Positions 8,254-37,812 of a stretch of DNA of 54,298 nt are shown in pieces. Source of the DNA: Muribaculaceae bacterium (GTDB taxonomy: Bacteria; Bacteroidota; Bacteroidia; Bacteroidales; Muribaculaceae); the NCBI GenBank assembly GCA_017624155.1, contig JAGANS010000093.1:1-54298 (forward strand), read 5' to 3'. The position numbers and the translations under genes are program-made. The notes below the pieces were generated by a model. That model was given only the letters and a program-made list of their open reading frames with translations. It made no database searches and was not told the DNA's origin. How positions within the stretch are numbered: position 1 is the stretch's first letter; the number at the start of each line of letters is the position of its first letter.

Positions 8254-9162
8254 TTACCTGACGTAGACTTTTTTGCCACCGGCGATGTAGAGGCCGGCGG
8301 GAAGTCCGACAGTGGCGTCAGCTGCGTTGACGGCAGTTCTGACGGCCACGCCCTGCATGTTGTAGACGTTAACGAGGTCGTTGTCGGCGGCGATTATCGA
8401 GCTGATGGAACTGAGAGTGCCGCTGAGGGTGACCGATGTGATATTGAAGGGAGCGTTGCCGGGGCCGGGATTCATCTGGATGAACAGAGCGCTGACATCG
8501 GCGAGCGCATCGGCTACGTTGATGCCGTCGAGGTCGATTACTGCCTGCGATGCGTTGCGGTCGGCCTTGTCGTTGCCGGCCCACAGGGCAGCCGGATTAT
8601 CGAAGGCGGTCATTACATTTATGTCGTAATTGGTAAAATCGCCCTTGTCGGCTGAAAAGTTGATGTTGAGGTAGCGCTGGTCGGCATATTCGTCGAATGC
8701 GGTTTTGAACAGTTCGAGGGTGTTCCAGTCGCTTACCCAGAAGTATCCGCCCCAGATGGCGTTGTCGGGCATTGCGAAGCCGTCGTTCATCACGGATACT
8801 TCCTTTACAGTGAAGTCGGCGCCGCAGATCTCTATGCCGTACTGACGGGCTGTGTTGAGACCGGCGTCGGTGAGGTAGAGCCTGAAGTCGGAGGCATTAT
8901 CGCTGAGTGTTGTTTTGATCGAGCCGGGGAGCCATGTGCCGTTGGCCTTGACTTCGATTACATCGCTTGTGTTTTCGAAGGTTATGTAGATATAGTTGCC
9001 TGTGCTGATACCGTCGGCGAAGTCTTCGGCAGGGATGGTGAGCGTGTTGTCCCAGGTGACATTGACAGGCTCGCCCGAGTAGAGGGTCTTGACAGTTTCC
9101 TGTGCCGATACGGGCATGAGAGTGGCCGTTGCGACCGCGGCCGCAAGTAAAAATTTGTTCAT
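8254..9162 (-). CDS. Secreted two-module beta-sandwich protein with sorting-type tail, last gene of PUL A
   Basis: A 302-aa exported protein. The signal peptide ends at PVSAQ (about residue 20) and there is no lipobox. Two similar modules of about 110 residues follow (about 24-130 and 135-255), each opening with an LxxG...W pattern and rich in beta-strand alternation. They resemble carbohydrate-binding modules common in secreted Bacteroidales proteins. The last 40 residues (VYNMQGVAVR ... LPAGLYIAGGKKVYVR) form a tail shared in pattern with three PUL B proteins, which suggests T9SS-type export. It lies 21 bp after the GH32 lipoprotein and before the operon terminator, so it is probably induced with the fructan genes. 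A fructan-binding role is inference; no catalytic motif is seen. Confidence 0.75.
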   Translation of the reverse strand: MNKFLLAAAVATATLMPVSAQETVKTLYSGEPVNVTWDNTLTIPAEDFADGISTGNYIYITFENTSDVIEVKANGTWLPGSIKTTLSDNASDFRLYLTDAGLNTARQYGIEICGADFTVKEVSVMNDGFAMPDNAIWGGYFWVSDWNTLELFKTAFDEYADQRYLNINFSADKGDFTNYDINVMTAFDNPAALWAGNDKADRNASQAVIDLDGINVADALADVSALFIQMNPGPGNAPFNITSVTLSGTLSSISSIIAADNDLVNVYNMQGVAVRTAVNAADATVGLPAGLYIAGGKKVYVR

Positions 9163-9183
9163 AACGATAAGGTTGTTAAGGTG

Positions 9184-10713
9184 TTATTTTGATTGCAATG
9201 TTATATCCGAAATATTGATGTCGGCACCGTAGGAGTTGATCGACCAGCAGTTTTTGAGAGTGCCGTATATGCGGGTAGTGAAGGCCGCGGCGTCGTTGAT
9301 ATAGACGGTGATTACCGAGTTGTCGGTTACTATCGTGATGTGGTACACGCCGTCGGCGGGGGTGGCGAAGGTGTATCCGTCGGTATCGGGTATGAATCCG
9401 ATGCCTCCTTCTTCTTCAAGGTTGATCTTGCGGGTGTCGCCGTTCTCGGGATTGACGATTATGGAATAGTATTTTTCAGAATCGGAGCCGCGGGCGAATG
9501 ACATGCCGAAACGGTCGTGGGCCGATGACGCGGTGACGGTGAATTCGATGCGGTTCTCGGTGCCGAGGCGCGGCATAAGGCGCGACTCGTTGCCGCTGAG
9601 GCTGAATCCGGCGATAGTGCGGGCCTGTCCGAGCATAGAGGCGATAGCGGGTACCTCGGTGGTGTACAGGGTGCCGTCGGCGCGTTGCATCAGTTTGTGG
9701 GCCACGAGGTTGCCGGCCCAGTCGGCGGCGTTGACGGTGCTGCTGCCGGCTCGGGTGGCACACCAGCCCCAAATGTATCGGTCGGTGCCGTCGCTTGCGG
9801 TTTTGCCGGCGTAGAATCCGCGTGAGTCGAGGAAGCCTTCGTGGCTGTCGGGCCACAGGCCGGCATCGTTGGCGGTGCAGGCGCGCAACTCATCGATAGT
9901 GCGGCCCTTGAAGTACTGCACACGGCGTATGGCGTCGTGCTGCTCGGAATATACGAGATACCACCAGTCGCCCATTCTGAACAGGTCGGGGCACTCGTAG
10001 AAGCGATCCCACATCATGGTCATGAATACGCCGGCCGAAGTCCAGTCGCGCAGGTCGGTCGAGGTGTATTCGGCCAGGACGCCTTTGCCGCCGAGACGTG
10101 TAGATACCAGCATATGGAATGATCCGTCGTCGGCGCGGTACACGAAGGGATCGCGGAAATCGGTGCGGCTGTATGTGTCGCCTCCGTCGATGAGCACGCT
10201 GCGGTCTTTGGTCCAGGTGCGGAAGTCGGTCGATGTAGCGAGCATAACAGCTTCGTTGATGCCGGCTGTGGTGGCCGGATTGGGCGAATGTGCGGTGTAG
10301 AATGTATAATATGTGCCTTCGTGGTATATGGTGGAGCCGGTGCCGATGGCGGCGTCAAGCTCCGAGGCAGTGCCGGTAGGCACGATCTCGCCGAGCGAGG
10401 TGTATGATGCGGCGTCGGATGTCTCGACAGCCCATATCGGATGGTATGTGACAGCCTGATTGGGACGGTAGTCCTGTAAGTACAGCACTTTGAAATTCTT
10501 GTCGACCGGATCGAAGAACGGCATCGGGTCGCCGACATAGCCTACGTAGGGTTTGTAGTATATATTCTGGCTCTGTGCCTCGGCCGACGCGAAAAAAGTG
10601 TCGGTGCCGTCGAGGTCGCGGTGTGTGAGTACGGGCTGGTCGTCGCTGCATGCGCTCAGTGCCAGGGCCGATAGGATGGCCGGTGCGGAGATATATCGTG
10701 AAATGTTGCTCAT
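9184..10713 (-). CDS. GH32 surface lipoprotein (fructan hydrolase, possibly endo-acting)
   Basis: A 509-aa lipoprotein; the start at 10713 is chosen because it gives a signal peptide with lipobox LSAC (Cys22) followed by SDDQ, an acidic pattern associated with surface export in Bacteroidetes. The GH32 five-bladed propeller covers about residues 45-340. The nucleophile is Asp62 in a GDPM context instead of the usual NDPNG; RDP is at 187-189 and the acid/base Glu240 sits in YECPDLF. The C-terminal beta-sandwich (about 360-505) is typical of the family. It lies 8 bp after the DUF4960 lipoprotein gene. By analogy with the B. theta fructan locus, where a surface GH32 (BT1760) cuts levan next to the binding protein BT1761, it is probably the surface fructan-cleaving enzyme of PUL A. 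The linkage preference cannot be read from sequence. Confidence 0.85.
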   Translation of the reverse strand: MSNISRYISAPAILSALALSACSDDQPVLTHRDLDGTDTFFASAEAQSQNIYYKPYVGYVGDPMPFFDPVDKNFKVLYLQDYRPNQAVTYHPIWAVETSDAASYTSLGEIVPTGTASELDAAIGTGSTIYHEGTYYTFYTAHSPNPATTAGINEAVMLATSTDFRTWTKDRSVLIDGGDTYSRTDFRDPFVYRADDGSFHMLVSTRLGGKGVLAEYTSTDLRDWTSAGVFMTMMWDRFYECPDLFRMGDWWYLVYSEQHDAIRRVQYFKGRTIDELRACTANDAGLWPDSHEGFLDSRGFYAGKTASDGTDRYIWGWCATRAGSSTVNAADWAGNLVAHKLMQRADGTLYTTEVPAIASMLGQARTIAGFSLSGNESRLMPRLGTENRIEFTVTASSAHDRFGMSFARGSDSEKYYSIIVNPENGDTRKINLEEEGGIGFIPDTDGYTFATPADGVYHITIVTDNSVITVYINDAAAFTTRIYGTLKNCWSINSYGADINISDITLQSK

Positions 10714-10721: not shown

Positions 10722-12095
10722 TTATTGGCAGAGGTAGTTGATGGCGTTTTTGGTAAGGGCGATGATGTTGTCGCGGTAGGGGTTGTCGGCGTTGTTGCGG
10801 TCGTACCATTCATAGGCCGGGGTGCCGATGGTGATGACACGTCCCGAGGAGAACCCCTTGAGTGCCTCGTAAGGCTCGAATTCGGCTATTGTGACGCGGT
10901 TGATGTCGTAGAAATGGCCTGATGCGAGAGCCTTGGCTCCGGTGCGTTCTTCCCATCCCTGCATCGATCCGTAGGGATCCCAGTCGACGCCCCACTGCAA
11001 GGTGCGGTTGGTGTTGGCACAACCCTTGGCGAGCAGCAGTATGCGGCTGTCGGAGTCGGTTTCGATACCGTCAAAGAGCGGGTGAGCCTCGTGCCCGGTG
11101 ACAGTGAATCCGAGATTGTCTTCAAGAGTTTCGCTGCTTTCGCCGCCGAACATGTTGTTGGGGCTCTGCTGGTCGCGGGCAATGCGCCATACATCGTTGA
11201 TGTAGCGGGCGCCGTCGCGCGAGGCGAGGATGGCTCCGCCGTGCAGCCAGTAGCTGTTGAACAGGTCGCGGGAGTCCCACATCTGTCCGGGCCAGTCGAG
11301 CCAGTCGAAATGGCACCATATCATGGTGAAGTCGTCGAGGCGTACTGTGCCGTCGATGATTTGCTGAAGCGAAACGTAGCGTGATGCCGGTATATTGTCG
11401 AGCATCCAGCGGCATGCGGTGCGTGCCTCGTCGCCGAGAGCGTCGACAGTTGCGGCGTTGCCTATGAATGCCTTGGGCGCCTGCGACATTTCGTCTTTGA
11501 TGACTGTGACGGTGTAGCGAACGGTGGCGGTGCGCAGGGTGGCGGTGAACACCACGGGAGCGGTAAAGTCCAGTACGCTGCCCGATTCAGGATCGACATC
11601 AGCGCCGCCGGTGACGGTGAACGATGCCTGCATGGCGGTGACATCGGCGTCGAGCGGCACGAATATCAGGATGGTGCGGGCCTCGTTGTCGATGGTGCCC
11701 GAGTACTTGTTGTCGAGTGTGAAGCTGAGGAACTCTACGTTGTCGTGGGCGGCCCGAAGTGTGTATTCGGTATGGACGTCGCCGTTGGTGACACGTATCG
11801 CACGGGGAACCGAAGCGTTGAAATGTGTGCCGGCGGGGTAGTCGCATGTGGCTCCGGGGCTGAGGGTGATGGCATCTACTGTAAGGTCGGAAAGGTTGGT
11901 GCCGGTGGGAAGATTTACTTCGATGCTGCGCGAGTTGTGTTCCACCACACCTTCGTAGCCGCTCACTGTGATGGCTTCGATGCGGGTCTCTCCCTCAAGA
12001 CGCAGGCCGGAGGTGTTGTCGTCGCTGCAGCCTGCGAGGATATATGCCGCAAGAGCTGTAAGAGCGATATATAATATGTTGACTATGGTTTTCAT
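10722..12095 (-). CDS. DUF4960 lipoprotein, probable surface fructan-binding protein (BT1761-like)
   Basis: A 457-aa protein with signal peptide and lipobox LAGC (Cys23) followed by SDDN, predicting a surface lipoprotein. Residues about 35-205 hold two Ig-like beta modules; about 208-457 is the DUF4960 region. In B. theta the protein in this position of the fructan locus (BT1761) binds levan, and a binding role is inferred here by position and domain. This copy is divergent: the block HNC(M/K)WD conserved in the three DUF4960 proteins of PUL B is replaced by TLQWGVDWD. It lies 25 bp after susD and 8 bp before the GH32 lipoprotein gene. Confidence 0.8.
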   Translation of the reverse strand: MKTIVNILYIALTALAAYILAGCSDDNTSGLRLEGETRIEAITVSGYEGVVEHNSRSIEVNLPTGTNLSDLTVDAITLSPGATCDYPAGTHFNASVPRAIRVTNGDVHTEYTLRAAHDNVEFLSFTLDNKYSGTIDNEARTILIFVPLDADVTAMQASFTVTGGADVDPESGSVLDFTAPVVFTATLRTATVRYTVTVIKDEMSQAPKAFIGNAATVDALGDEARTACRWMLDNIPASRYVSLQQIIDGTVRLDDFTMIWCHFDWLDWPGQMWDSRDLFNSYWLHGGAILASRDGARYINDVWRIARDQQSPNNMFGGESSETLEDNLGFTVTGHEAHPLFDGIETDSDSRILLLAKGCANTNRTLQWGVDWDPYGSMQGWEERTGAKALASGHFYDINRVTIAEFEPYEALKGFSSGRVITIGTPAYEWYDRNNADNPYRDNIIALTKNAINYLCQ

Positions 12096-12120: not shown

Positions 12121-13851
12121 TTACCAGTTGCCGATATTTTGGTGATAGTGTCCGTTGGACGCGCTTACCTGCGAGAAGGGGATGGGCAGATATTCGTTCT
12201 TGTCGGCGGTGAACGATGCCGATGAGTATATGGCGCAGTTATCGGCCTCCTCGGCATAGTATTTGTTGAGCGTGGCGGCAGCCTCGCCCCAGCGGACGAG
12301 ATCGAAGAATCGCTCGGATTCCATAGCCATCTCCACGCGGCGTTCGTGCTTCACTATGGTGAGAGCCTGCTCGCGGGTGTACGAACCCGGGTAGGGGCGT
12401 ACGCTGAGGTGAATGCCGTACAGGTTGCCGTAGTCGGAGATCATGGATGTGCTCTGTGCGGCGCGGCGGCGCAGTTCGTTTACCAGCTCCATGGCTTCCG
12501 GGATATTCATGTCGAGTTGCACGAGGGCTTCGGCACGCATGAGCATCACGTCGGCATATCGGAGTACGATGCGGTTCATCGGCGAGCCCCACCATGAGCC
12601 CTTGACGAGGTATTCTGTATCGGGGTCGACGTTGTGTTTGAGCGATACGTAGTATCCGTAGAGTCCGTTGGAGCGGCTCCATACGGCGCTGCGGTCCATC
12701 ATGTAGTTCTTATTGAACATGTAGGGGGTGCCGGGCATACCGACGGTGAGATAGAGGCGCGGGTCGGCGTTGTCGGCAGCCGGGTCGTAGTCTTTGTTGT
12801 TGAATGTATCGGGCATGGGCAGACCGTCGCCGTCGGTGCGGAAAGCGTTGACGAGATTCTGCGAGGGCTTGTAGAAGTCGCAGCCGCCGTCGGTCACGCC
12901 GGGAATATTGGGAACTATGAGGCCATACGACCAGTTGCAGTTGCCGTGAGTGGTGCCGTCGTTGAACGAGTATTGCATTGCCCATATCGACTCGGGCCCG
13001 TTTTCGTACTGAGGCTCGGGGCGGAAGTTGTTGTGGAAATCGGGTTCGAGAGCGCATCCCGAAGCCGACATGATTGCCGGGTCGGTGTATTTGACAACAT
13101 TGAGCAGGTCCTCGCGGTCGATCGATGTGACGCGGTGCGATGCCGGATCGTCCTGACGGTATGCTTTGTAGAGATAAGTCTTGGCGAGATAGGCAGCGGC
13201 AGCGGCGCGGTTGGGCCGTCCGACGCTCTTCTGCACCTCGGGCAGGTTGTCGAATGCGTATTTGAAGTCGTCGGCTATCAGCTGCCAGCCTTGGTCGTTG
13301 GTATAAGCGGTGTTTTCAAGATCGTTGTACTGCGAGGGCGTGAGTGACTCGTCGACAGCAAAGGGTATCTGTTTGTAGAGGCGTTTGAGCAGGAAGTGAC
13401 CGTGTGCGCGCAGGAACCGCATCTCGGCTATGCGGGTATCGCGCTCGGGATAAGTCGAGGCGTCCATCGAGCCGAGGACTTCGAGGGCCGAGTTGGCGCG
13501 CGAGATGGCATTGTAGAGGCGTTGCCACATGTCGGAAATGTTCCAGTTGGTGGTCATGATGCCCTGTGATATTTCCAGGGCGTGAAACACGTCGCCGTCC
13601 TCGGTGCCGTTGCCGCCCTTATAGGCGTCGTCGGAGCGCACGTCGAAGTTCCACATCGAGAACGACGAGTTGATATCCTCGGCCGAGATCCATACGGCGT
13701 AGGCCGATATCACGAGGTTGTCGACGTATCGTGGATCGAGTACCTGATTCTGGTCGAGAGTGCCCTGGGGCTTGGGGTTGTCGAGGAAGTCGTTGCAGCC
13801 CGTGCATATTGCGGCGAGGGCGAGAGCCGCGGTGTATATGATTCTTTTCAT
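12121..13851 (-). CDS. susD: SusD-family outer-membrane glycan-binding lipoprotein (PUL A)
   Basis: A 576-aa SusD/RagB homologue. The lipobox is CTGC (Cys19) followed by NDFLDNPKPQG, the usual start of mature SusD proteins. The N-terminal TPR-like scaffold and the C-terminal block RRVEMAMESERFFDLVRWG are present. It forms the lid of the SusC transporter on the cell surface. It lies 7 bp downstream of its susC partner and 25 bp upstream of the DUF4960 gene, so the four genes form one transcription unit. Confidence 0.95.
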   Translation of the reverse strand: MKRIIYTAALALAAICTGCNDFLDNPKPQGTLDQNQVLDPRYVDNLVISAYAVWISAEDINSSFSMWNFDVRSDDAYKGGNGTEDGDVFHALEISQGIMTTNWNISDMWQRLYNAISRANSALEVLGSMDASTYPERDTRIAEMRFLRAHGHFLLKRLYKQIPFAVDESLTPSQYNDLENTAYTNDQGWQLIADDFKYAFDNLPEVQKSVGRPNRAAAAAYLAKTYLYKAYRQDDPASHRVTSIDREDLLNVVKYTDPAIMSASGCALEPDFHNNFRPEPQYENGPESIWAMQYSFNDGTTHGNCNWSYGLIVPNIPGVTDGGCDFYKPSQNLVNAFRTDGDGLPMPDTFNNKDYDPAADNADPRLYLTVGMPGTPYMFNKNYMMDRSAVWSRSNGLYGYYVSLKHNVDPDTEYLVKGSWWGSPMNRIVLRYADVMLMRAEALVQLDMNIPEAMELVNELRRRAAQSTSMISDYGNLYGIHLSVRPYPGSYTREQALTIVKHERRVEMAMESERFFDLVRWGEAAATLNKYYAEEADNCAIYSSASFTADKNEYLPIPFSQVSASNGHYHQNIGNW

Positions 13852-13858: not shown

Positions 13859-16800
13859 TCAGAAAGTGACGTTAAGACCGAAAGTTACATTGGTCGGAAT
13901 GGGATAGCCGAAGTTGGGATTCTCGGGGTCTACACCCGTGAATTTCTTGCTCTTGATTGTGAGGAGATTCTGAGCGCTGAGGTAGAAGCGGAGTTTCTGC
14001 ATGTGCAGGCGTCCCGAGATGCGCGATGGCAGGATGTAGCCAATCTGTATGTTGCGGAGCTTTAGGTATGAGCCGTTCTCTACGAAGTAGGTCGATACGC
14101 GCTTTTCGTTATTGAGGTCGGAGCGGCTCAGGGCCGGAATGTCCGAGTCGGTGTTCTGCGGAGTCCAGGCGCCGAGCAGTCGTTCGCCTTTGTTGAGGAA
14201 GCCTATGTTGAGTCCGCTCCACAGATCGGTTTCTTTTTTCATGTCGGATATCACATCCTGCCCCTGCGCTCCTTGCCAGAACATCGAGAAGTCGAAGTCG
14301 CGGTATTGCAGGTACACGTTGATGCCGTAGGTGAAGTCGGGCGTCGGGTCGTAGATCCACTGCTGGTCCTTCTCGGTGATGCGCCCGTCGTTATCGAGGT
14401 CGCGCCAGCGGAGGCGGCCGGGAGCGGCGCCCTCCTGTATGGCATGGTTGTCGACTTCTTCCTGCGAGCGGAATATGCCGTCGGCCACGTAGCCGGCCTG
14501 TGCGCCGAAGGGATGGCCGATGACGCTGTACACGCCGTTGCCGCCGAATGTGCCGTTGGCGGCTACTGTGCCGGGGATGTCGGTAATCTTGTTGCGGTAG
14601 GCTGATATGTTGCCTGTGATTTCGTATCGCAGGCCGCAGGGTGCGGTATCGCGGTAGCCGAGGTTGAGTTCGATGCCGCGGTTTTCCATCTCGCCGGCGT
14701 TGATCCACTGCGACGAGCCTTCACCCATGGCAGCGATGCCGACCATCTGTACGAGTATGTCGGATGTCTTTTTGTAGTAGGCGTCGAGCGAGCCGAAGAA
14801 GCGGTTGTTGAACATCGCCCAGTCGAGGCCGGCGTTGTATTGCGTGGTGGTTTCCCACTTTATGTCGGGGTTGCCGATCTGGTTGCGTTTGAATCCGGAG
14901 TCGAGAATCGAGCCGCCGTTGGTGCCGTCGATGTCGTATGAAGTGCCGTAGCTCTGTCCGCCCGACTCGTTGACACCGTAATTAGGTACGTACACGAAGT
15001 AGCGGGCGAGGTTGCTGATCTCCTGATTGCCGGTCTGGCCCCATGAGAGGCGCAGTTTGAGGTCGTTGAGCCACGTCGCGGAGTCGCGGAGGAAGGCTTC
15101 GTTGTTGATGCGCCAGCCGAGCGATACCGAGGGGAAAGTGGCGTAGCGGTTGTGTGCGCCGAAGCGCGACGAGCCGTCGTGACGCAGGGTGACGCCGAGC
15201 AGATAGCGTTCGTCGAAGGAATAGTTGGCCTTGGCGAAGAACGATACCAGGGAGAAGCCGTCGCCCGAACCGTATGCCTGAGCTGTGCCTGCGCCGGCGT
15301 CGGGCCACATGAAGTCGGGGTTGAGCACCGAGAAACCGGTCTTGTAGCCCGAGAACCACGATGAGTTCTCGCGGTTGAGTTCGATGCCGGCGAGAGCGTC
15401 GATGTGATTGCGGCCGAAGTCGATGTTGTAGTTGGCCACGAGATTCCACATCCATCGGGTCCAGTGCTCCTGCTTGGCCTCTACGGCGTTGGTGGAGTTG
15501 GCCACATTGCCCTCGGTGATCGGATAGGTGAATATGCGCTGCTCCTTCTGCGAGTAGTCGAGGCCGAAGGTGGTGCGTATGTTGAAGCCCCTGAATGGAT
15601 TGAGATTGACATATGCGTCGCCGAACATGCGCCAGTATGTATAGCGGTTGTCCTTGTTGCGGATGAGGCGGGCGAGGGGATTCTCACGGTCGGGATAGCC
15701 GCCTACGGGGCCGGCAAACTCGCCGCTCTCTGTGTAAACCGGAAGCGAGGGATTGGCCTGTAGTACATTCTCGAGAAATCCGCCGGGCGCCTGTACCTCG
15801 TCGGTACGGTTGACGGTAAAGTGCTCGCCGATGGTGAGCGCGTTGCCGAAAGGCTTGAACTCGGTGTTGATGCGTGCCGAAAAGCGCTCGAAGTCGGAAT
15901 ATTTGATGACGCCGAGATTTTTGTAATATCCGAGTGAGAAGAAAGCGCTCATCTTGTCAGTGCTGCCGCTTACGGAGAGGTTGTAGTTCTGTACAAAGCC
16001 CGTACGGGTGGTTTCGTCGACCCAGTCGGTGTCGGCGGCGGGGGTGGTGCCGGCGGCGTCGAGATATTTCGACATGGATATTGATCCAAGTACAGGATAG
16101 CCGGCCTTGTCGTATCCCCAGTCGAATCTGTAACCGAGTCCGTTGGTGTTGGGATCCTGTCCGTCGTTGACATACGCCTGCCACATCGCGCGGCCATAGC
16201 CCTCGGCGTTGAGTACCTTCATACGGCTTGTGTAGAACTGGGCTGCCACTGATGCGTCGAGCTGTACGCGCAGATCCTTGCCCTTCTTGGTTGTGATGAT
16301 GATGACGCCGTTGGCGGCACGCGAGCCGTATATCGAGGCGGAGGCGGCGTCTTTGAGTATCTGTATCGATTCAATGTCGCCGGGATTGAGCTCGTGCATG
16401 CCGCCCTTGGTGGGCACACCGTCAATGATATACAGAGGATCGTTGTTGTTGAGTGTGCCGATACCGCGGATACGCACTGTTGATGCACCGCTGGGATTGC
16501 CGTCGGCGCTGATATTCATGCCCGGGACGCGTCCCTGAAGAGCCTTGATAGGGTTGTTCTCGTTCTGCTTTGAGATTTCGTCGACGTCGATGGCCGTGAT
16601 GGCGCCGGTGACGTCGACCTTGCGCTGTGTAGAGTAGCCCACTACCACTACTTCGTCGAGCAGCTTGTTGTCCTCCTCGAGCGCTATTTCGAGATGGGGC
16701 TGAGCCTTGACGGTAGCGGTGCGGAATCCGATATAGGATATGACAAGACGTGAATCTTGCGGCACGGTGATTTCAAAGTTGCCGTCGATGTCTGTGACAA

Positions 16801-17032: not shown

Positions 17033-17054
17033 GCTATGGAATCAAGAGAACGGT

Positions 17055-17091
17055 TATAAAGTTTGCGTCTTAGGATATAAAAATTGTTGCA
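17055..17091 (-). promoter_or_regulatory. Candidate operator for the fructan sensor-regulators (PUL A copy)
   Basis: On the minus strand the 37 bases starting TGCAACAA and ending TTTATA align without gaps to 22810-22846 on the plus strand, with 24 of 37 positions identical. The first base lies 59 bp upstream of the -7 element here and 58 bp upstream there. The AraC-type domain of the neighbouring hybrid regulators is the natural candidate binder (inference). Confidence 0.5.
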
Positions 17092-17158
17092 GGGCGGAAA
17101 ATTCTAAAACAAATGTCGGATTTTTACAGGGACAGGCTATGGCTCTGATACACACCGC

Positions 17159-22846: not shown

Positions 22847-22867
22847 CTGTATCACATACCAATGTAT

Positions 22868-26989: not shown

Positions 26990-27063
26990 TTGCTGTACGG
27001 TTATCCGTGGCTATAAAGATATCGGTAAAAGCTTTAGATAATTCGCCGAGTTATGCCATAATT

Positions 27064-27119: not shown

Positions 27120-27150
27120 CTTAAACTACATGCGGCAAGCCGCTTTAATA

Positions 27151-30100: not shown

Positions 30101-30231
30101 ACGTGTTCACCGCCACCAAGTACAAGGGACTTGATCCCGAACTGCCTCTGGGCGGCTACGGCGCCCGCGTGGACAATGGTCCGTATCCGCGCTCGCGTGT
30201 CATCTCATTCGGTCTTAACATCAACTTCTAA
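27196..30231 (+). CDS. susC: SusC-family TonB-dependent transporter (PUL B)
   Basis: A 1011-aa outer-membrane transporter. Signal peptide 1-20 (VMAQAQ), regulatory beta domain about 22-110, DEIVVVGY TonB-box-like stretch, plug with SIYGSRAANGVIIVTTRQG, barrel ending in LNINF. It is clearly paralogous to the PUL A transporter, especially in the first 110 residues, but the barrel loops differ, suggesting a different fructan length or linkage. The susD partner begins about 14 bp downstream. Confidence 0.96.
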   Translation: MKKTILSAILLLLMAVMAQAQNITVHGTVWGLADDEPLIGASVTPADNPGKGVTTDIDGAFTITVAEGSQLTFSYVGYKSQTLAAVPDMKVVLAEDAQALDEIVVVGYTTQRKADLTGAVAVMDMKQPMSENSGSIINSMQGRMPGVQVTTDAAPGGGAIRVRGMSTVNANDPLYVVDGIATDNITSINPSDIESMQVLKDAASASIYGSRAANGVIIVTTRQGKGDKMNINVNYAASLQTVGKRYEVLNATQWGEAYWAANLNCGLTPSHPLYGNGPRPELVQYIGGNTNFATTNTDWQDEVYHAAWTNNLTASISNSSERGSFLFSANYINQNGMMIDTFYRRYSARVNSTYKFNKYITVGENLMIANWNDRGYSTNDDRGIPYTAMRQHPALPVRGADGDWARPMDLISSDIANPVQQLYNGRDNTNQSWRIFGNAYLAVMPVEGLTLKSNLGIEHVQYFNKVLNRKTIASDMNSMSREYGQGDTWTWTNTANYVRTFNEKHHLNALFGVEAIKYTFENVGAARTDYAFEDDDYMHIDSGEGTQTNNGTKRQWSLFSIFGKVDYNYADRYLASFTLRRDQSSRLDKNHNSGVFPAATVAWRPTQEEFFPENNILNDLKIRFAWGQNGNSAIGDLYASYSTYRYDMGNGAYDLNGTNTGQVPGIIVATSGNDKLKWETTTQTNIGIDLGLLNGSLSVSADYYIKKTKDMLTIPPVLSVAGENAAMWMNTGDMDNHGWEVTVNYNSPRYGDFSWSGNFNISAYRNKLVKLNSLVKSVGGDFRLMVDEPMGVYYGYVCDGIFQTPDQVSNHAIQQGAAPGRLIYRDIDGNGVINENDRCIIGDPNPDFSLGLNLDFRYRDFTLSTFFTGDFGFDIYNTTKRQLYFMSNGGVSTNRSVDILNAWTPNNTNTDIPALAVTDDNNETRMSTYYVEDGSYFKMKYIKLAYQLPQKVLRPIGASTCSVYGQLENVFTATKYKGLDPELPLGGYGARVDNGPYPRSRVISFGLNINF

Positions 30232-30245
30232 TCGTGTCAACAACA

Positions 30246-31913
30246 ATGAAATCATCATATATCACCAGCAAACTCCGCCGCGCCGTGCTGGCAGGTGCCT
30301 GTGCAGTGCTCGCAGCAGGTGCCATGACATCGTGCGACGACATGCTCGACATGAAGCCCCAGGGCCAGTTCACTGCCTCGCAGCTCGACGACGAATCGAT
30401 CGAAGGCCTGATGGCAGCAGCATACGCCGGCCTGCAGAGCCACTTCTTCGGCAATAACGAGGCCTTCGCCGGCCCTATCACCAACTGGATTTTCGACGTC
30501 CGCTCCGACGATGCCTACAAGGGCGGCGGCGGTGTGTCGATGGAAGGCAACATCCATCAGCTTGAAGTATCCAACATACAGAGCGACAACGTGAGCATAT
30601 TCAACAAGTGGCAGAACAACTTCTATGCCGTGTCGCGCTGCAACAAGGCCATACAGGCCGTTACAAATTCAGAGGCATCCGATAAGGAAAACCTGATCGC
30701 TCAGCTCAAGACCTTGCGCGCCTACTTCTACTTCGACCTTATCCGCATATTTGACCGCATCCCGTATTTCACAGAGAACGACAACCCCAACGAGGCACGT
30801 TACGACCAGTACACACGCGATGAGATATTCGGGTTCATCAAATCAGACCTTGCCGACGCCTACAAGGTGCTCCCCGAGACCCAGAGTCAGGTGGGCCGCT
30901 TCAACAAGTATGTAGCCGCCGCTATCCACGCCAAGGTATCGGCATTCACATCCTCATGGAGCGAGGTGGAGCAGTATGCTGACTATGTGATCTCCTCGGG
31001 CCGCTACCGGCTGTATCAGAACTTCCTCGACATGTCGAAGATCGAGTTCAACAACCAGTATGAGTCGGTGATGGCCATACAGTTCTCCACTGCCAACAAC
31101 AACGCCAACATCAACTGGTGCAACCTGCTCAACACCACCTACTCGGCCGGCAACCTTTACGGCAACGGCGACGACTTCTTCCTGGCCTCGCAGAATCTTG
31201 TCAACGCATTCCGCACCGACGACAATGGCCTGCCCATTCTCGACGGCACATTCAACGACGTGAAGGTTACCACCAACTATCCCGGCAATGTGGATCCGCG
31301 CCTCGACTTCACTGTCGGCCGCATAGGCATGCCATTCCGCGGCTATACATATACGATGGAATGGACCCGCGCCTATGATGTTTACGGCGAGTATTCGGGC
31401 AAGAAGGGCCTTATCGACCCCAATTCGCCCGACATGGTTCAGGGCTTCCCCTGGGGAGCTTCGCCGCTCAATTTCATTCTCATCCGCTATGCCGACATCG
31501 TTCTGCTCAAGGCCGAGGCCCTGATCGAGCAGAACAAGCAGCTCGGCGATGCCCGCGAACTCATCAACAGCGTGCGCCGCAAGGCTGCCCGCTCGGTTGA
31601 TCCGTCATACACACCGGTCGACTGCAATCCCAATATCGCATCCTATTATGTAGCCGAATATCCCGCCGAGGGCTGGAATCAGGATTATGCCCGCCGCGCC
31701 GTGCGCATGGAGCGCCGCCTCGAGCTGGCCATGGAGGGCAACCGATGGTTTGACCTCGTGCGCTGGGGCAATGTCGTCGAGACTATGAACGAATACTTCC
31801 GCACCGAGTCGCTCCTCCGTCCCTACTACGAGAGCGCTACGATGACCGCCGACGAGACCTACTTCCCCGTGCCTCTCAGTGAGGTGGAGAACGCAGGCGG
31901 CCTTTACAATTAA
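30246..31913 (+). CDS. susD: SusD-family outer-membrane glycan-binding lipoprotein (PUL B)
   Basis: A 555-aa SusD/RagB protein. The ATG at 30246 is preferred to an upstream GTG at 30234 because it begins the signal peptide directly; lipobox MTSC (Cys33) is followed by DDMLDMKPQG. The C-terminal block RRLELAMEGNRWFDLVRWG is typical. It is the partner of the susC gene just upstream and should hold fructan chains over the transporter mouth. The gene ends 20 bp before the DUF4960 lipoprotein gene. Confidence 0.95.
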   Translation: MKSSYITSKLRRAVLAGACAVLAAGAMTSCDDMLDMKPQGQFTASQLDDESIEGLMAAAYAGLQSHFFGNNEAFAGPITNWIFDVRSDDAYKGGGGVSMEGNIHQLEVSNIQSDNVSIFNKWQNNFYAVSRCNKAIQAVTNSEASDKENLIAQLKTLRAYFYFDLIRIFDRIPYFTENDNPNEARYDQYTRDEIFGFIKSDLADAYKVLPETQSQVGRFNKYVAAAIHAKVSAFTSSWSEVEQYADYVISSGRYRLYQNFLDMSKIEFNNQYESVMAIQFSTANNNANINWCNLLNTTYSAGNLYGNGDDFFLASQNLVNAFRTDDNGLPILDGTFNDVKVTTNYPGNVDPRLDFTVGRIGMPFRGYTYTMEWTRAYDVYGEYSGKKGLIDPNSPDMVQGFPWGASPLNFILIRYADIVLLKAEALIEQNKQLGDARELINSVRRKAARSVDPSYTPVDCNPNIASYYVAEYPAEGWNQDYARRAVRMERRLELAMEGNRWFDLVRWGNVVETMNEYFRTESLLRPYYESATMTADETYFPVPLSEVENAGGLYN

Positions 31914-31933: not shown

Positions 31934-33115
31934 ATGAAATTCATCAAATATATCGCTTTTGCGGCCATAGTCGGCACCGCAGCAGCATTTCAGGCATGCT
32001 CAAGCGTCGAGTATCCCGAGACACCTGTAGTGCCGGGTGTCACCAATCTCGCCTATACACTCGCAGGCCGTAACGTGACCCTCACATGGGACGCTCCCCA
32101 GGGTGCGACCGGATTTGAGGTGATCCGCAATGCCCAGCTTGTGGAGACTCTTCCCGCCGGAACAACCACCTATACCCTGCAGCGCCAGAGCACCGGCGTG
32201 GAACTCGCATACACAGTCAAGGCCAAGTACGACAACGATCTCGTATCGCTCGGCCAGACAGTCCGCTTCATTATCGAGGCCATTCCCGCCAAGGTGGGTA
32301 TGCTCATCCCCTGCGCAAGTGTCGCCGAACTCACCGACGATGACGAGATCGCCGCAGCCGAGTGGTTCCAGACAACCTATGCCTCCAATGGCAGCATCCT
32401 CACTCCGGCCGACATCGCCGGTATCGATCCCGATGAATACAATGTGGTATGGGTGAACATCGACCGCGTGGGTCTTGCCTACGGCTGGGAGAACCTCCCC
32501 GCTCCGCTTGTCACTCCCGAGGCTGTCGAGGCCATGGCCCGCTATGTGGCCGAGGGCGGTAACGTATTCCTCACCAAGATGGCCACTCAACTCACTGTGC
32601 CCTACGGTATACTGGCTCCGGAATTCGCTCCCGGCATCTTCGGCTCGGGCGAAGGCGGCGAAGGCAACGACAACTGGTGTGTGAACGCCCAGATCGGCTA
32701 CATGAACCACGAAAGCAATCCCTCGCAGTACTATGACCACCGTGCCGACGATATCTATAAGGGCATGACAACTCTGCCCGACTACGGGCACGAGACATTC
32801 GCCCTCGAGGGTCCGGGATGGCGCGAAGACCACAACTGCATGTGGGATCTCAATGCCTACCAGTACACCGCTCAGGGCGCCAATACGGTCGAGAAGTTCC
32901 AGAATCAGAACAACTGTATCGTTCTCGGCACATGGGCCCACGTGGTTGACTATGCCGTAGCCGGTATCGTACAGTTCAATCCCACAGCCGAGCATCTCGG
33001 CAGCTGCATCGCCATCGGCCTGTCGGCCTACGAATTTGCACAGCGCGGCGGCAATCCCTATCAGGATAATGTCAACCGCCTGACACAGAATTGTATAAGC
33101 GTTCTCAGCAAGTAA
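31934..33115 (+). CDS. FnIII-DUF4960 lipoprotein, probable surface fructan-binding protein
   Basis: A 393-aa protein with lipobox FQAC (Cys22). A fibronectin type III-like module (about 38-115, NLAYTLAGRNVTLTWDAP) precedes the DUF4960 domain (about 120-393), which contains WREDHNCMWDLN, also present in the next two genes. It sits in the third position after susCD, where B. theta has the levan-binding protein BT1761, so a surface binding role is inferred. It has no sorting-type tail, unlike its two neighbours. A strong hairpin follows at 33138. Confidence 0.82.
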   Translation: MKFIKYIAFAAIVGTAAAFQACSSVEYPETPVVPGVTNLAYTLAGRNVTLTWDAPQGATGFEVIRNAQLVETLPAGTTTYTLQRQSTGVELAYTVKAKYDNDLVSLGQTVRFIIEAIPAKVGMLIPCASVAELTDDDEIAAAEWFQTTYASNGSILTPADIAGIDPDEYNVVWVNIDRVGLAYGWENLPAPLVTPEAVEAMARYVAEGGNVFLTKMATQLTVPYGILAPEFAPGIFGSGEGGEGNDNWCVNAQIGYMNHESNPSQYYDHRADDIYKGMTTLPDYGHETFALEGPGWREDHNCMWDLNAYQYTAQGANTVEKFQNQNNCIVLGTWAHVVDYAVAGIVQFNPTAEHLGSCIAIGLSAYEFAQRGGNPYQDNVNRLTQNCISVLSK

Positions 33116-33200: not shown

Positions 33201-34286
33201 ATGAAAAACACTTTACGCAAAAGCGTAATTGCAGCCTTGGCCCTCGGCCTCGCCGCAACAGTACAGGCTAATCCGCGTCAGGCTATTCTTATCGCGGAGC
33301 CGACAGTAGATCAGCTCAACAGTCAGGAAAAGGCTGCTGCCGAATACTTCCAGCGCCTCAACAACGACGGCGTTGTTATTGCCCCGGGCGAAACATCAAA
33401 GATCGATGCACAGCAAGTCGACGTAATATGGATCCATATCGACCGTCTGAATGTCGGCAAGGGTAATCTCCCCGCTGTATTCGACGAGGCCACAATCAAC
33501 GCTCTTAAGCAGTACCTTGCCGACGGCGGCAACCTGCTCCTCACCAAGCACGCCACCCAGCTCGTGGCTCGGGTTGGCCGCGTAGCCCCCGAATTCGACG
33601 TCAACATCTATGGCGACGGCGATGGAGGCAATGGCACTGACAACTGGGAAATTATGGCGCAAATCGGTTATGATAATATAGAGAAAGATCCCAGCCAATA
33701 TTACGACCGTCGCAATCATCCGATTTATGCCGGATTAACGACCGGCGATCGTGAGGGTCATGAAGTGTTTCCTTTGCTTGGGACAAACGGCGCCGGTGAA
33801 ATGTGGCGCGAAGACCACAACTGCAAGTGGGACTTCAATGCATACAATATCGCTGGTCTGTTCGCAGTTGACGGCGCAAATACGGTTGAGAAATTTGAGA
33901 AGCAGACAAATTCGGTAGTATTGGGTGCATGGGGCCATGTAAAAGACTATGCCTGCGCAGGTATCATCGAATTCAAACAGCAGGCTCTCGGTCGCAGCAG
34001 TGATAACAAGGGCGTGATCATTGCCAACGGCCTTGCTGCTTATGAGTTGGCCCCACGTAATGGCGGTAATGCTTTCCAAAGCAATATCGAGAAACTTACA
34101 GCCAATTCGCTCAACTATCTCAGCGGTGACGGTGATCCCTCGGGCATAACCGATGTGGAGGTCGCCGGTGACAGCGCTGCCGAGTATTTCAATCTGCAGG
34201 GCGTGCGTGTGGCTGAAGATGCTCTCTCGGCCGGTCTTTACATCAAGCGTCAGGGCAACAAGTCTACAAAAGTAATCATCAAATAA
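33201..34286 (+). CDS. Secreted DUF4960 protein with sorting-type tail, first of a tandem pair
   Basis: A 361-aa protein with signal peptidase I signal (ends TVQA, about residue 23), mature start NPRQAILI, and no lipobox. The DUF4960 domain fills about 25-310, with VDVIWIHIDR, ADGGNLLLTKHATQL and WREDHNCKWDFN. The last 45 residues (YFNLQGVRVAE ... GLYIKRQGN ... KVIIK) form a tail like those of other secreted proteins here. It is a close paralogue of the gene 11 bp downstream. Segments resemble class I amidotransferase-like (ThuA-like) folds, so an enzymatic role cannot be excluded; fructan binding is the simpler inference. Confidence 0.78.
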   Translation: MKNTLRKSVIAALALGLAATVQANPRQAILIAEPTVDQLNSQEKAAAEYFQRLNNDGVVIAPGETSKIDAQQVDVIWIHIDRLNVGKGNLPAVFDEATINALKQYLADGGNLLLTKHATQLVARVGRVAPEFDVNIYGDGDGGNGTDNWEIMAQIGYDNIEKDPSQYYDRRNHPIYAGLTTGDREGHEVFPLLGTNGAGEMWREDHNCKWDFNAYNIAGLFAVDGANTVEKFEKQTNSVVLGAWGHVKDYACAGIIEFKQQALGRSSDNKGVIIANGLAAYELAPRNGGNAFQSNIEKLTANSLNYLSGDGDPSGITDVEVAGDSAAEYFNLQGVRVAEDALSAGLYIKRQGNKSTKVIIK

Positions 34287-34297: not shown

Positions 34298-35377
34298 ATG
34301 AAACTCAATATATTCAAAACCGCTGTCGCAACTGCTGTTCTCAGCTGTGCTGCTTCGGCCATGGCCAATCCCCGCCAGGCTATTCTAATCGGCTATCCTA
34401 CCGTCGACGGTATCGACAACTTTCAGGAATATGCCGCCGCCAAGTTCTTTGTCGACAACAACAAGGACGGTGTGGTGATCGCGCCGGGCGAAACCGACAA
34501 AATCGATGCTAAGAATCTCGACTGCATCTGGATACATATCGACCGTCTCGAGGTCGGCAAGGGTAACCTCCCCACCGCGTTCAGCAACACCGCTACCGTC
34601 GAAGCTCTCAAGAAATTTGTCGCCGACGGCGGCAATCTGCTCCTCACCAAGCATGCCACCCAGCTGCTGGCCAAGATCGGCCGCGTAGAGCCTTCATTCG
34701 ACATCAACATATATAGCGACGGTCAGGGCGGCGAAGGATTCGACGACTGGACCCTCAACGCATATCTCGGCTACTGGCAGGAGAATCCCGATAATCAGGG
34801 CGACAAATTTCCCGAGCAGATCTATGACCGTCGCGGCCATGATATCTACAAGGGCCTTGAAACCAGCGACGCCTTTGCCTGGGAGACATTTCCCATGGAA
34901 GGTACCGGCAATATAGAGACATCGCTTTGGCGCGAGGATCACAACTGCATGTGGGATCTCAACGGCTACACATATACCGCCGAGGGAGCCAATACGGTTG
35001 AGAAGTTCGAGAAGCAGACAAATTCGGTAATTCTCGGCACATGGGGCCATGTACAGGACTATGCCGTGGCCGGCGTGGTGGAATTCCTCCCCGCCGACAA
35101 CTCGGGCCGCATCATCGCCAACGGTCTGGCCACCTGTGAGTGGTCGCCCCGCAACGGTGTGAACGCATACCACAGCAACCTCGAAAAACTCACTCAGAAC
35201 TGTCTCAGCTACCTCGCCCCCGCCTCGACCGACGGAGTGGCCGACATCGAAGTTGCCGATGATGCCGCAGCCGAATATTTCAACCTCCAGGGCGTTCACG
35301 TCGATGCCGAGGCTCTCGCCCCCGGCCTCTATATCGTGCGCCGTGGCAATAATGCTACCAAAGTTCTCGTTAAGTAA
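34298..35377 (+). CDS. Secreted DUF4960 protein with sorting-type tail, second of a tandem pair
   Basis: A 359-aa paralogue of the preceding gene. The signal peptide ends SAMA (about residue 23), mature start NPRQAILI. It shares DCIWIHIDR, ADGGNLLLTKHATQL, LWREDHNCMWDLN and EKFEKQTNSVILGTWGHV. The tail YFNLQGVHVDA ... APGLYIVRRGN ... KVLVK matches its twin. The two genes look like a tandem duplication, with the strongest identity in the DUF4960 core. It is followed about 70 bp later by the LamG-GH32 gene, with which it is probably co-transcribed. Confidence 0.78.
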   Translation: MKLNIFKTAVATAVLSCAASAMANPRQAILIGYPTVDGIDNFQEYAAAKFFVDNNKDGVVIAPGETDKIDAKNLDCIWIHIDRLEVGKGNLPTAFSNTATVEALKKFVADGGNLLLTKHATQLLAKIGRVEPSFDINIYSDGQGGEGFDDWTLNAYLGYWQENPDNQGDKFPEQIYDRRGHDIYKGLETSDAFAWETFPMEGTGNIETSLWREDHNCMWDLNGYTYTAEGANTVEKFEKQTNSVILGTWGHVQDYAVAGVVEFLPADNSGRIIANGLATCEWSPRNGVNAYHSNLEKLTQNCLSYLAPASTDGVADIEVADDAAAEYFNLQGVHVDAEALAPGLYIVRRGNNATKVLVK

Positions 35378-35448
35378 ATATATTTTCCACACAGGTGCCG
35401 CGGCCATCCGCGACACCTGTGTATTACTACCCTAAAATCAGAATAATC

Positions 35449-37812
35449 ATGAATAAACCCTTTGCAACCCTGCTCCTTGCCGCGACTGCGGCAGTACCTG
35501 CGAGTGCCGGCATAGTGGCGCAATTTCCCATGGATGTCCGTTCGGGTCAGATTGTCGAGACCGTGAGCGGTAACCGCTTTGCCGTTCAGGGGCACTTCTC
35601 GCCCGAAAATGTGCCCGGTGCCGTAGGTCAGGCACTACGTTTTGACGGATATACATCGTTTGTTGACGCGCGCCTCGGCGCTATCCTTCCCGACGGTAAC
35701 AAAAAGATGACCTTCTCGGTATGGACGGCCATAGAGTCGTATCCCATTGTTAAGATCGATACCGACACGCCCGAGAAAACCGCCATAGTGAGCTGCCTCG
35801 ACGAGTCGGCCAAGACAGGATTCGGCTTTTTCATCGGCTTCAACGGCAAGTATTCGTTCCGCACATTTGTGGGCGGCTGGCCGGTTGACATCAATATCGA
35901 CACTCCGATGCCTACCTATCAGTGGAACAATCTCGTGGCCGTAGTCGACTGCGAGGCACGCAATGTCAAGGTCTACAACAACGGCGTTGAGGTGGGCTCG
36001 GCCCGCTGTAACGGCACATTCACATACGCCGGCGGCGCATTCCGCATGGGGCACGGCACACTTGAGAACTACTCGGGACCCTTCCTCCTTACCTCCTACA
36101 ACGGCCTTATCGACGAGGTGACCATATGGGACGAGGCAATCGACGTAGCCACCATCAAGTCGTGGACACCCGAGAACGAGGCCGATCTCAGCATCCCATC
36201 ATCGCGATTTGCCGATGACATACTGCGCCCCCGCTTCCACGGTATGCCTGCCGCCGCATGGACCAACGAATGCCACGGAATGGTATATGCCGACGGCCGG
36301 TATCATCTGTTTTTCCAGAAAAATGCCGACGGCCCCTATATGGCACGTCTTCACTGGGGACATATCTCGAGCGAGAATCTTTACGACTGGCGCGAGGAAA
36401 AGATAGCACTTGCCCCGGGCGCGCCGTACGACATCAAAGGCTGCTGGAGCGGCTGTGTATTCACCGATGATGTTGTCACAGGCGGCAAGCCCAATATCAT
36501 CTATACGGGTGTGGACTACGGCCACGCTTCAATCGATCTCGCCACGCCCGACGATGATGCGCTCATCAACTGGACCAAATCGCCGTCCAACCCGATTATC
36601 GCCGGCCGTCCCGACGGATTGTCCGACGACTTCCGCGACCCGTATTTCTTCCGTAATGGCGACAATGCCTATATCATCGTGGGCTCGTCGCGCAATGGCG
36701 TGGGCACCACCACTCTGCACCGCTTCAATCCCGACAGCCGCACATGGTCGGCCGACGGACTGTTCTTCACCGGTTCATCGGCATCGCAGGACGGACGTTT
36801 CTGGGAGATGCCCAATATCACGCCGATGGACAACGGCCGCTGGCTATTTACCGCTACTCCGCTCGAAACCTCCACAGGTGTGCGCACGATCTACTGGACA
36901 GGCACCGTCGGCAATGACGGCCGCTTCACTCCCGCCGCCAACTTCCGCACCGGCAAGAATGTGGAGCTTAACGCCCGCGACGGCTTCGGCCTCCTCTCGC
37001 CCACGATTTACCGCCACGACGGCAAGACTATCGCTATCGGCATCGTGCCTGACAAGCTGTCGGGCGAGAACAACTGGAATCTTGGCTGGGCCCACTGCTA
37101 CTCGCTGCCGCGCGAATGGAGCCTTGACGCAAGCGGCGAGCTTGTGCAGAAACCATATTCGGGGCTGACGGGCATGCGCTCCGACAACATGTACCAGCGC
37201 AACGACTTTGACCTCAACGGCTCGGTATCGCTGAGTCCTGTCGAGGGCCGCGAGGTGGAGCTGCTGGGACGCTTCATTGTCGGCACCGAGACATTCGGCT
37301 TCAAGGTATTCAGAAACGGCTCGGGCGAGGGCTCGATAAGCTACAATCCCAATACGGGCGAACTCATAGCCGACTTCTCGCGTCTCACCCGACTGGTGAA
37401 CGACGGCGGCGTGTACAACGGCATCTACCGCTGCTCGTTGCCTGAATTCCAGCGCTCGGGAGCAGAATTCAAGCTTAACGTGTTCATCGATCACTCGATA
37501 ATCGACATATTCATCAACGACCGCTGGGCCACATCAATCCGCGTGTTCCCCACCGACGCCGACGCATCGGGCATTATGGCGTACTCGACCGGCAACGTCA
37601 AGGTAAAGGAAATGCATGCGTGGACACTGAGCAAGACCGGCTCTTCGGGCGCCGTAAGCGACATTACGGCCGACGACGCATCGGATGCGCCTGTCGACGT
37701 GTACAACCTTCAGGGCATCGCCGTGCGCAACTCGGTCGCACGGGCCGAGGCCACCGAGGGCCTGCCCCGCGGCATCTACATCGTGGGCGGCCGCAAGGTG
37801 ATAGTAAAATAA
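35449..37812 (+). CDS. Secreted LamG-GH32 protein with altered nucleophile motif and sorting-type tail
   Basis: A 787-aa protein; the ATG at 35449 is chosen because the signal peptide (ending VPASA, residue 20) starts there. LamG/concanavalin-like module about 22-235, GH32 propeller about 255-560, C-terminal beta-sandwich about 575-725, tail about 740-787 (VYNLQGIAVRN ... LPRGIYIVGGRKVIVK). The GH32 motifs are changed: WMNDPNG becomes WTNECHG, placing Glu274 where the nucleophile Asp belongs; RDP is intact at 396-398; the acid/base motif reads WEMPNI (Glu453) instead of WECPDL. NExHG-type variants with LamG modules occur in Bacteroidetes GH32 proteins as I recall, so it may be a distinct active subgroup or a binding protein. 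Last gene of PUL B. Confidence 0.88.
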   Translation: MNKPFATLLLAATAAVPASAGIVAQFPMDVRSGQIVETVSGNRFAVQGHFSPENVPGAVGQALRFDGYTSFVDARLGAILPDGNKKMTFSVWTAIESYPIVKIDTDTPEKTAIVSCLDESAKTGFGFFIGFNGKYSFRTFVGGWPVDINIDTPMPTYQWNNLVAVVDCEARNVKVYNNGVEVGSARCNGTFTYAGGAFRMGHGTLENYSGPFLLTSYNGLIDEVTIWDEAIDVATIKSWTPENEADLSIPSSRFADDILRPRFHGMPAAAWTNECHGMVYADGRYHLFFQKNADGPYMARLHWGHISSENLYDWREEKIALAPGAPYDIKGCWSGCVFTDDVVTGGKPNIIYTGVDYGHASIDLATPDDDALINWTKSPSNPIIAGRPDGLSDDFRDPYFFRNGDNAYIIVGSSRNGVGTTTLHRFNPDSRTWSADGLFFTGSSASQDGRFWEMPNITPMDNGRWLFTATPLETSTGVRTIYWTGTVGNDGRFTPAANFRTGKNVELNARDGFGLLSPTIYRHDGKTIAIGIVPDKLSGENNWNLGWAHCYSLPREWSLDASGELVQKPYSGLTGMRSDNMYQRNDFDLNGSVSLSPVEGREVELLGRFIVGTETFGFKVFRNGSGEGSISYNPNTGELIADFSRLTRLVNDGGVYNGIYRCSLPEFQRSGAEFKLNVFIDHSIIDIFINDRWATSIRVFPTDADASGIMAYSTGNVKVKEMHAWTLSKTGSSGAVSDITADDASDAPVDVYNLQGIAVRNSVARAEATEGLPRGIYIVGGRKVIVK

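Follow-up and report, generated by a model that had tools for sequence, protein, structure and literature searches.

A Muribaculaceae fructan locus with two dissimilar import cassettes, one shared core operon and two fructose-sensor-type regulators

How might a bacterium manage two kinds of fructan when breakdown of either one would yield the same sugar? This question is raised by a 54,298-nucleotide stretch of DNA from a Muribaculaceae bacterium (contig JAGANS010000093.1 of GenBank assembly GCA_017624155.1; here, the window), which is contig 36 of a 97-contig draft genome of 2.44 Mb that is 87.8% complete. The window carries a polysaccharide utilization locus (PUL) in which two susCD-DUF4960-GH32 sets point away from a central pair of hybrid two-component system (HTCS) regulators, an arrangement proposed in an initial annotation and confirmed here by Pfam annotation. 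We propose, with a probability of about 0.6, that the locus forms one fructose-sensing hub serving two outer-membrane fructan cassettes of separate origin, with wiring that is most likely partly split. The proposal is based on anatomy, homology, residues, promoter boxes and trees, from which we infer the substrates, the ligand, protein location and the pairing of regulators with boxes.

The core operon and the two cassettes

The overall layout and homology are held with very high confidence. Leftward from the center, on the minus strand, Pfam places HTCS_B and HTCS_A followed by SusC1-SusD1-DUF4960-GH32-hypothetical; rightward, on the plus strand, it places GH32(DUF4980)-MFS-PfkB followed by SusC2-SusD2, three DUF4960 genes and a LamG-GH32. 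All four DUF4960 matches and all three GH32N matches found genome-wide in this 88%-complete genome lie inside the window. The gene kinds of the initial two-set picture stand, but its symmetry does not: three DUF4960 genes and the LamG-GH32 belong to set 2, whereas set 1 has one DUF4960 gene, an endo-levanase-type GH32 and an extra gene. Likewise, the importer and fructokinase that had been assigned to one set only are present but better placed in an operon of their own with a third GH32; a hairpin follows this operon, and SusC2 has its own promoter box. This core operon comprises:

22998-24836, plus strand: GH32 of exo-fructosidase type (DUF4980 plus GH32; GH32ex), by Pfam, with a WMNDPNG motif and, by eye, a signal peptide without lipobox
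24851-26038, plus strand: MFS sugar importer, by Pfam
26047-26928, plus strand: PfkB-family kinase by Pfam, a fructokinase by its neighbor genes
26954-26985, plus strand: hairpin between the core operon and set 2 (71-nt fold of -23.6 kcal/mol, z -2.77)

One core of GH32, importer and PfkB kinase between both sets supports the shared intracellular branch that had been suggested, and both sets would feed one exo-GH32, one fructose importer and one kinase.

What would each set import? Set 1 consists of:

13859-16957, minus strand: SusC1, 65.6% identical to BT1763
12121-13851, minus strand: SusD1, 60.7% identical to BT1762
10722-12095, minus strand: BT1761-like DUF4960 surface glycan-binding protein (Pfam; PDB 8a9y_T, 2e-88)
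9184-10713, minus strand: GH32 endo-levanase homologue with a BT1760-like C-domain (Pfam PF16346; PDB 8a9y_E, 4e-170, and 6r3r_A, 8e-167; lipobox by eye)
8254-9162, minus strand: hypothetical predicted secreted protein, the last set 1 gene, with a tail like those of the type IX secretion system (T9SS) at its C terminus (TIGR04183, 18.1 bits; cut-off 23)
8200-8228, minus strand: terminator-like hairpin after the operon, a 13-bp stem followed by Ts (a consensus match from a scan whose total was no higher than that of its shuffles)

The four outer-membrane parts of set 1 match all four proteins of the Bacteroides thetaiotaomicron levan utilisome, BT1760-63, and SusC1 and SusD1 group with BT1763 and BT1762 as type I with a Shimodaira-Hasegawa-like approximate likelihood ratio (SH-aLRT) support of 100 in quick trees. 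The initial annotation had proposed that the two importers are specialized and that their binding sites be compared. When we ran this comparison with the contact list from PMC7782687, levan-contact residues proved mostly kept in set 1 (6/8 SusD and 8/10 SusC positions) and mostly lost in set 2 (1/8 and 2/10). The changed positions in set 1 are SusD C298 (to G, and thus no vicinal disulfide), SusD Y395 (to W), SusC T380 and SusC D383. These residues favor specialization, pointing to levan for one set and another fructan, plausibly inulin, for the other. Set 1 thus likely serves levan: its DUF4960 protein would bind levan at the surface, the endo-levanase would cut it, and SusC1/SusD1 would import beta-2,6 oligosaccharides. 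In several further cassettes of type I, a homologue of the hypothetical protein is encoded next to the levanase.

Set 2, a cassette of ancient divergence whose nearest relatives are in genomes G182 and G029 of the same genus, consists of:

27196-30231, plus strand: SusC2, type II (Pfam, tree), 41.2% identical to BT1763
30234-31913, plus strand: SusD2, type II (Pfam, tree), 36.3% identical to BT1762
31934-33115, plus strand: DUF4960 protein 2a (Pfam), with a lipobox by eye and an N-terminal extra region
33201-34286, plus strand: DUF4960 protein 2b (Pfam), with a signal peptide without lipobox and, by eye, a T9SS-like tail
34298-35377, plus strand: DUF4960 protein 2c (Pfam), 59% identical to 2b, with a T9SS-like tail by eye
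35449-37812, plus strand: LamG-GH32 with Glu at the nucleophile position (WTNECHG) and a T9SS-like tail (TIGR04183, 12.7 bits)

Its GH32 combines an endo-type motif with predicted export signals. Glu replaces the nucleophile Asp in all 34 distinct LamG-GH32 homologues (motif N-E; the core GH32 homologues have N-D in 85/85 distinct sequences), and the RDP motif and acid/base Glu are present in 35/35 rows, duplicates included. A Glu at this position is described as typical of endo-inulinases (PMC6042768, PMC5984348), and the W-x-N-E Glu, RDP and acid/base Glu together predict a LamG-GH32 of endo-inulinase type. Because of this Glu, an inulin-type substrate is plausible: set 2 would import a fructan different from that of set 1, most plausibly inulin-type, with its three DUF4960 proteins and an exported endo-inulinase-type GH32. 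We rate the chance that set 2 serves inulin as about even.

Another possibility is that set 2 takes up a fructan other than linear inulin, be it graminan, fructo-oligosaccharides or a fructan that is branched or of mixed linkage, or that its range overlaps that of set 1 in the case of branched levan. The SusCD pair of strain Bt-8736, the one pair with demonstrated inulin use in the literature consulted, is reported to be 49/39% identical to BT1763/BT1762 (PMC5967196), which matches the type III medians (48/42%) and is unlike set 2 (41.2/36.3%). Set 2 may serve another fructan, since it is type III that shows Bt-8736-like identities. Types II and III also co-occur in six genomes (G029, G022, G399, G269, G273 and G261), which argues that they are not redundant. 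Set against this is the endo-inulinase-type nucleophile, invariant among the LamG-GH32 homologues, and we consider a non-inulin substrate possible, though at distinctly less than even odds.

Export by type IX secretion is a possibility for some surface proteins of the PUL, while SusD, the set 1 DUF4960 protein, 2a and the levanase look like lipoproteins. The C termini of the 8254-9162 protein, DUF4960 proteins 2b and 2c and LamG-GH32 share a "(Y/F)NLQG...GLYI" pattern that recurs in many homologues. No T9SS sorting domain in the PUL scored above the curated cut-off of 23 bits (TIGR04183 gave the 18.1 and 12.7 bits listed above, and 2b and 2c were unlisted). A search of the genome for two parts of the T9SS machinery found SprA (2715 bits) and three C25 peptidase matches. 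The literature search returned no papers combining Muribaculaceae, type IX secretion and PULs.

Two regulators, three promoters and their wiring

The central regulators are:

17159-19909, minus strand: HTCS_A, a fructose-sensor-type hybrid two-component regulator of the accessory clade (Pfam, PDB match, trees)
19927-22677, minus strand: HTCS_B, a fructose-sensor-type hybrid two-component regulator of the core clade (Pfam, PDB match, trees)

Both comprise a periplasmic-binding-protein sensor, HisKA, HATPase, a receiver and an AraC-type helix-turn-helix (HTH). The best PDB match of both sensors is 2x7x, which we take to be BT1754, and 69 columns are invariant in an alignment of 12 sensors that includes the two, so that fructose is likely the signal for both. 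Each also contains the SHIP motif, which has been tied to control of DNA binding (PMC11253607).

The two proteins are 57.5% identical and fall into different clades. A quick 105-row tree places HTCS_A in one clade of 14 rows (99 SH-aLRT) and HTCS_B in another of 77 rows (99 SH-aLRT), nearly all of which flank GH32ex. In a careful tree of 44 rows hand-picked from the 105, the core and accessory labels need one change in 200/200 bootstrap trees. That the two are sisters, or recent tandem duplicates, was rejected by the approximately unbiased (AU) test (p 0.003), and domain-by-domain identities gave no clear sign of gene conversion apart from a slightly high 65% in the stretch after the sensor. 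None of the 13 other accessory-clade regulators directly flanks GH32ex, and 11 of the 13 immediately precede a typed SusC (of type I in six cases, type III in three and type II in two). The B-A tandem recurs in G029 and G022, there upstream of SusC2. Separately, at locus L141 (G269:C25) an accessory-clade HTCS directly precedes a lone levanase-type GH32 with no SusC between, and in L045 and L046 (G006 and G013, larger genomes of the same genus) the fructose HTCS appears as a pair of adjoining open frames.

The clades also differ in the first recognition helix. In HTCS_B numbering, R840 is kept in 25/27 and Y844 in 27/27 core-labelled rows, the Alistipes outgroup L121 included. HTCS_A has Q and T at these positions, and among the other accessory rows (8 of 13 examined) Q occurs in 5 and T in 4.

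To locate binding sites, we used a box model consisting of a direct repeat with a 21-bp period (TGCAACA...TTnATA), derived from 82 core and 62 SusC promoters of other loci in Muribaculaceae and other Bacteroidales; HTCS sites have been reported as direct repeats averaging 21 bp (PMC3878776). The SusC-promoter matrix was seeded from boxes picked by eye. Promoters with non-ACGTN letters, duplicates and SusC promoters not directly behind an HTCS_B-best match were dropped, and those of L139, L162 and L149, which have diverged HTCSs, were excluded from the core set. A random-start motif search of the core promoters returned the same box as the seeded search. The random-start motif from the SusC upstream regions was discarded, as it landed on the 3' coding end of the HTCS, which those regions included. 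Twenty shuffled windows gave maxima of 8.3 bits (SusC matrix) and 11.4 bits (core matrix). Over the whole window and both strands, all predicted boxes above these maxima fall in three intergenic regions, before GH32ex, SusC1 and SusC2:

17050-17097, minus strand: HTCS box before SusC1 (24.4 bits core matrix, 12.7 SusC matrix)
22804-22851, plus strand: HTCS box before the core operon (28.1 bits core matrix; 16.4 on the opposite strand)
27079-27131, plus strand: HTCS box before SusC2 (35.4 bits SusC matrix)
27051-27103, minus strand: second HTCS box, overlapping the SusC2 box (31.4 bits SusC matrix; 28.9 core matrix at 27049)

Because the boxes lie only at these promoters, the three operons look like one HTCS-type regulon, and predicted boxes of one kind at each of them lend support to the joint control of both sets put forward initially. 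The minus-strand box at 27051-27103 faces only the PfkB end and may be left over from a divergent pair of SusC genes of the kind found in G244 and G269. Scans for sigma-70 promoters and terminators returned 17 sites (11.8 expected) and 13 sites (16.8 expected), respectively, and one site of either kind is therefore weak evidence.

Which regulator would act on which box? Boxes behind accessory regulators (11 promoters from the tree clade plus L173, assigned by best BLAST match) score below those behind core regulators (12 versus 62 promoters, leave-one-out for core, p 5e-7). The difference also appears within type II (p 0.02) and type III (p 0.001) cassettes. Of the window's own boxes, the one before SusC2 belongs to the core type, and the one before SusC1 reaches just 12.7 bits with the SusC matrix. 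In the wiring that we propose, periplasmic fructose would bind both HTCS sensors and turn on the three operons through the 21-bp direct-repeat boxes, with HTCS_B most likely driving the core and set 2 and HTCS_A driving set 1. The split is suggested because the recognition residues of HTCS_A are changed and the boxes beside such regulators diverge; given the rest of the proposal, we would call it a coin toss.

Alternatively, control may be fully joint: both HTCSs would bind the same boxes, and the pair, whether redundant or mixed, would act on each of the three operons. A recognizable box at all three promoters is consistent with this, as is the retention of sensor, kinase, receiver, HTH and SHIP motif by both proteins, and paralogous HTCS pairs sharing one motif have been proposed for B. 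thetaiotaomicron BT4111/BT4124 and BT4178/BT4182 (PMC3878776). However, the Q and T of HTCS_A in place of R840 and Y844, together with the lower-scoring boxes beside accessory regulators, argue against this reading, and we find full joint control rather unlikely.

Along with the type III identities and the sub-threshold sorting domains described above, several observations speak against the hub with partly split wiring. Support for the accessory-clade branch in the careful 44-row tree is 93 by bootstrap but 42 by SH-aLRT, whereas the quick 105-row tree gave an SH-aLRT of 99. Within type I cassettes, the boxes do not differ significantly (6 versus 4 promoters, p 0.13). The SusC1 box still scores 24.4 bits with the core matrix, and HTCS_B may for this reason act at SusC1 too. 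In G029, G022 and G182, which hold the nearest relatives of set 2, an HTCS_A-like regulator lies directly upstream of SusC2, so that set 2 is assigned to HTCS_B by its box alone.

More tentatively, Muribaculaceae may have evolved a second fructose-HTCS lineage whose DNA recognition has been re-coded, which accompanies additional fructan cassettes and acts as a separate switch reading the same sugar; we think this somewhat less likely than not. If it is true, the window holds both switches side by side, and levan and inulin might be used in a graded or ordered way in response to a single sugar.

Origin of the two sets and cassettes in relatives

Did the two sets arise from one another? SusC1 and SusC2 are 37% identical and SusD1 and SusD2 35%; where BLAST aligned them, the DUF4960 proteins of the two sets are 20-22% and the GH32s 23% identical. 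Quick trees (99 SusD rows, 100 SusC rows) separate each of types I, II and IV by a branch of 100 SH-aLRT; type III does not form a single group, its long-branched row L049 standing apart. SusC1/SusD1 and SusC2/SusD2 each have nearer relatives in genomes that yielded just one of the two sets.

The initial annotation had suggested looking for the same layout in related genomes, and these showed a conserved core combined with exchangeable cassettes. Core loci (GH32ex divergent from HTCS) were cut at 10-kb flanks or contig ends and counted as distinct loci after removal of the flank fragments L034, L036 and L051. Among 75 such loci, a single typed SusC stands behind the HTCS in 57, two in 4 and none in 14, although second cassettes may be missed because many loci end at the flank or contig end, and these counts are not rates because multi-cassette genomes were chosen on purpose. 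The 57 single cassettes comprise 23 of type IV, 19 of type II, 13 of type III and 2 of type I; most of the relatives examined have a single cassette here. Since 57 of 75 core loci carry one cassette, drawn from four types, a duplication is unsupported, and the two sets are with high probability of independent origin, as judged from sequence comparison: separately inherited cassettes that became stacked.

In the window, the type I cassette lies behind the HTCS pair and the type II cassette beyond PfkB on the other side. The PfkB-SusC2 junction is not spanned by any further row among the matches listed in 397 genomes of the family, and of 57 distinct PfkB genes with a called downstream gene, one is followed by a codirectional SusC homologue, 25% identical. 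The stacking order is nevertheless not unique, because G194 (same genus, 98% complete) has a similar row, GH32ex-MFS-SusC2-SusD2-DUF4960-GH32lam-SusC1, on a single contig; a PfkB gene was not detected along this row. Double sets that are linked but composed differently occur in G244, G333 and G349 (types I and II) and in G399, G269, G273 and G261 (types II and III). Across 37 same-genus genomes, DUF4960 matches of both the I and II classes were found only in the genome of the window, to which a later search added G182 and G194. Locus L146 (G194:C12) has a 1898-aa open frame with two DUF4960 matches and LamG-GH32 similarity, and other long fused forms occur in G212, G261 and G137.

An assembly chimera, in which the PfkB-SusC2 junction joins two loci that lie apart in the real genome, would fit a 97-contig, 88% complete draft and the absence of that junction from the other listed rows. 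The row in G194, the similar G+C content of the PUL genes (0.52-0.60) and the presence of like boxes to either side of the junction make it very unlikely. In-place duplication of one fructan set followed by specialization, as originally suggested, would explain why like genes flank the regulators to the left and right, but it was rejected and is barely credible given the identities above, SusC/SusD trees that do not place SusC1 with SusC2, separate types I and II with members in single-set genomes, and regulators that are not a recent tandem duplicate.

Two apparent overlaps of open reading frames, HTCS_A/HTCS_B and GH32/DUF4960, arise because upstream start codons were taken; the likely starts are 19909 (HTCS_A) and 10713 (GH32). 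Right after set 2, at 37983-40410, lie two genes with G+C of 0.36 and 0.43, below the range of the PUL genes, one of them CsgG-like. Adjoining set 1, at 271-8028 on the minus strand, is a gene for a 2585-aa subtilase with Ig-like repeats and a C-terminal Por_Secre_tail match slightly below the cut-off.

Comparison with known fructan systems

If our proposal holds, cassettes have here been stacked, not swapped, on one fructose hub in another family, with regulators of two lineages; strain-level SusCD swapping is reported to decide which fructan a Bacteroides eats (PMC5967196). Linked dual fructan cassettes were not described in the titles and abstract openings of the fructan-PUL literature searched, subscription papers lying outside its scope; papers on fructan PULs of Muribaculaceae were few. 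The locus would make it possible to test directly how two diets that yield one signal molecule are kept apart by a bacterium. It also suggests a simple rule for Muribaculaceae fructan genotypes, which combines the core with the type of cassette (levan-like for I, other fructans for II and III); a tally of nothing but GH32 or SusCD genes would misjudge genomes of this kind.

The closest described locus is the levan PUL of B. thetaiotaomicron VPI-5482 (BT1754-BT1765, with its utilisome BT1760-63; PMC7618045, PMC7782687). It resembles the window in its SusC, SusD, DUF4960 protein, endo-levanase and fructose-type HTCS, and the published gene list includes an exo-GH32, importer and kinase, as in the window. 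Unlike that PUL, the window has a second, distant SusCD cassette, a second HTCS, a core operon divergent from the regulators and, in set 1, an extra gene with a T9SS-like tail. The HTCS_Fru and paired HTCS regulons of Bacteroides (PMC3878776) share with the window direct-repeat boxes about 21 bp apart and paralogous HTCS pairs in one locus. In contrast to those pairs, the two HTCSs of the window belong to two clades and differ in recognition-helix residues, and our box model comes from Muribaculaceae and other Bacteroidales.

Strain Bt-8736 has a SusCD pair unlike that of the type strain, and adding this pair to the type strain conferred inulin use with levan use kept and BT1754 required (PMC5967196). 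The engineered strain, Bt(8736-2), is like the window in having a fructan PUL core with interchangeable SusCD pairs and in carrying two of them; it uses inulin and levan and loses growth on inulin without BT1754 (PMC5967196). Unlike Bt-8736 and Bt(8736-2), the window has two whole cassettes, natural and linked, and a second HTCS, and its set 2 pair appears to be of a different class from the Bt-8736 pair, judged by identity to BT1763/BT1762, with its own GH32 carrying an endo-type motif. By analogy, the window can be regarded as a natural, larger version of the construct that placed the Bt-8736 SusCD pair in the type strain. If the second regulator lineage is indeed a separate switch, the window would be the natural counterpart of that engineered two-cassette strain.

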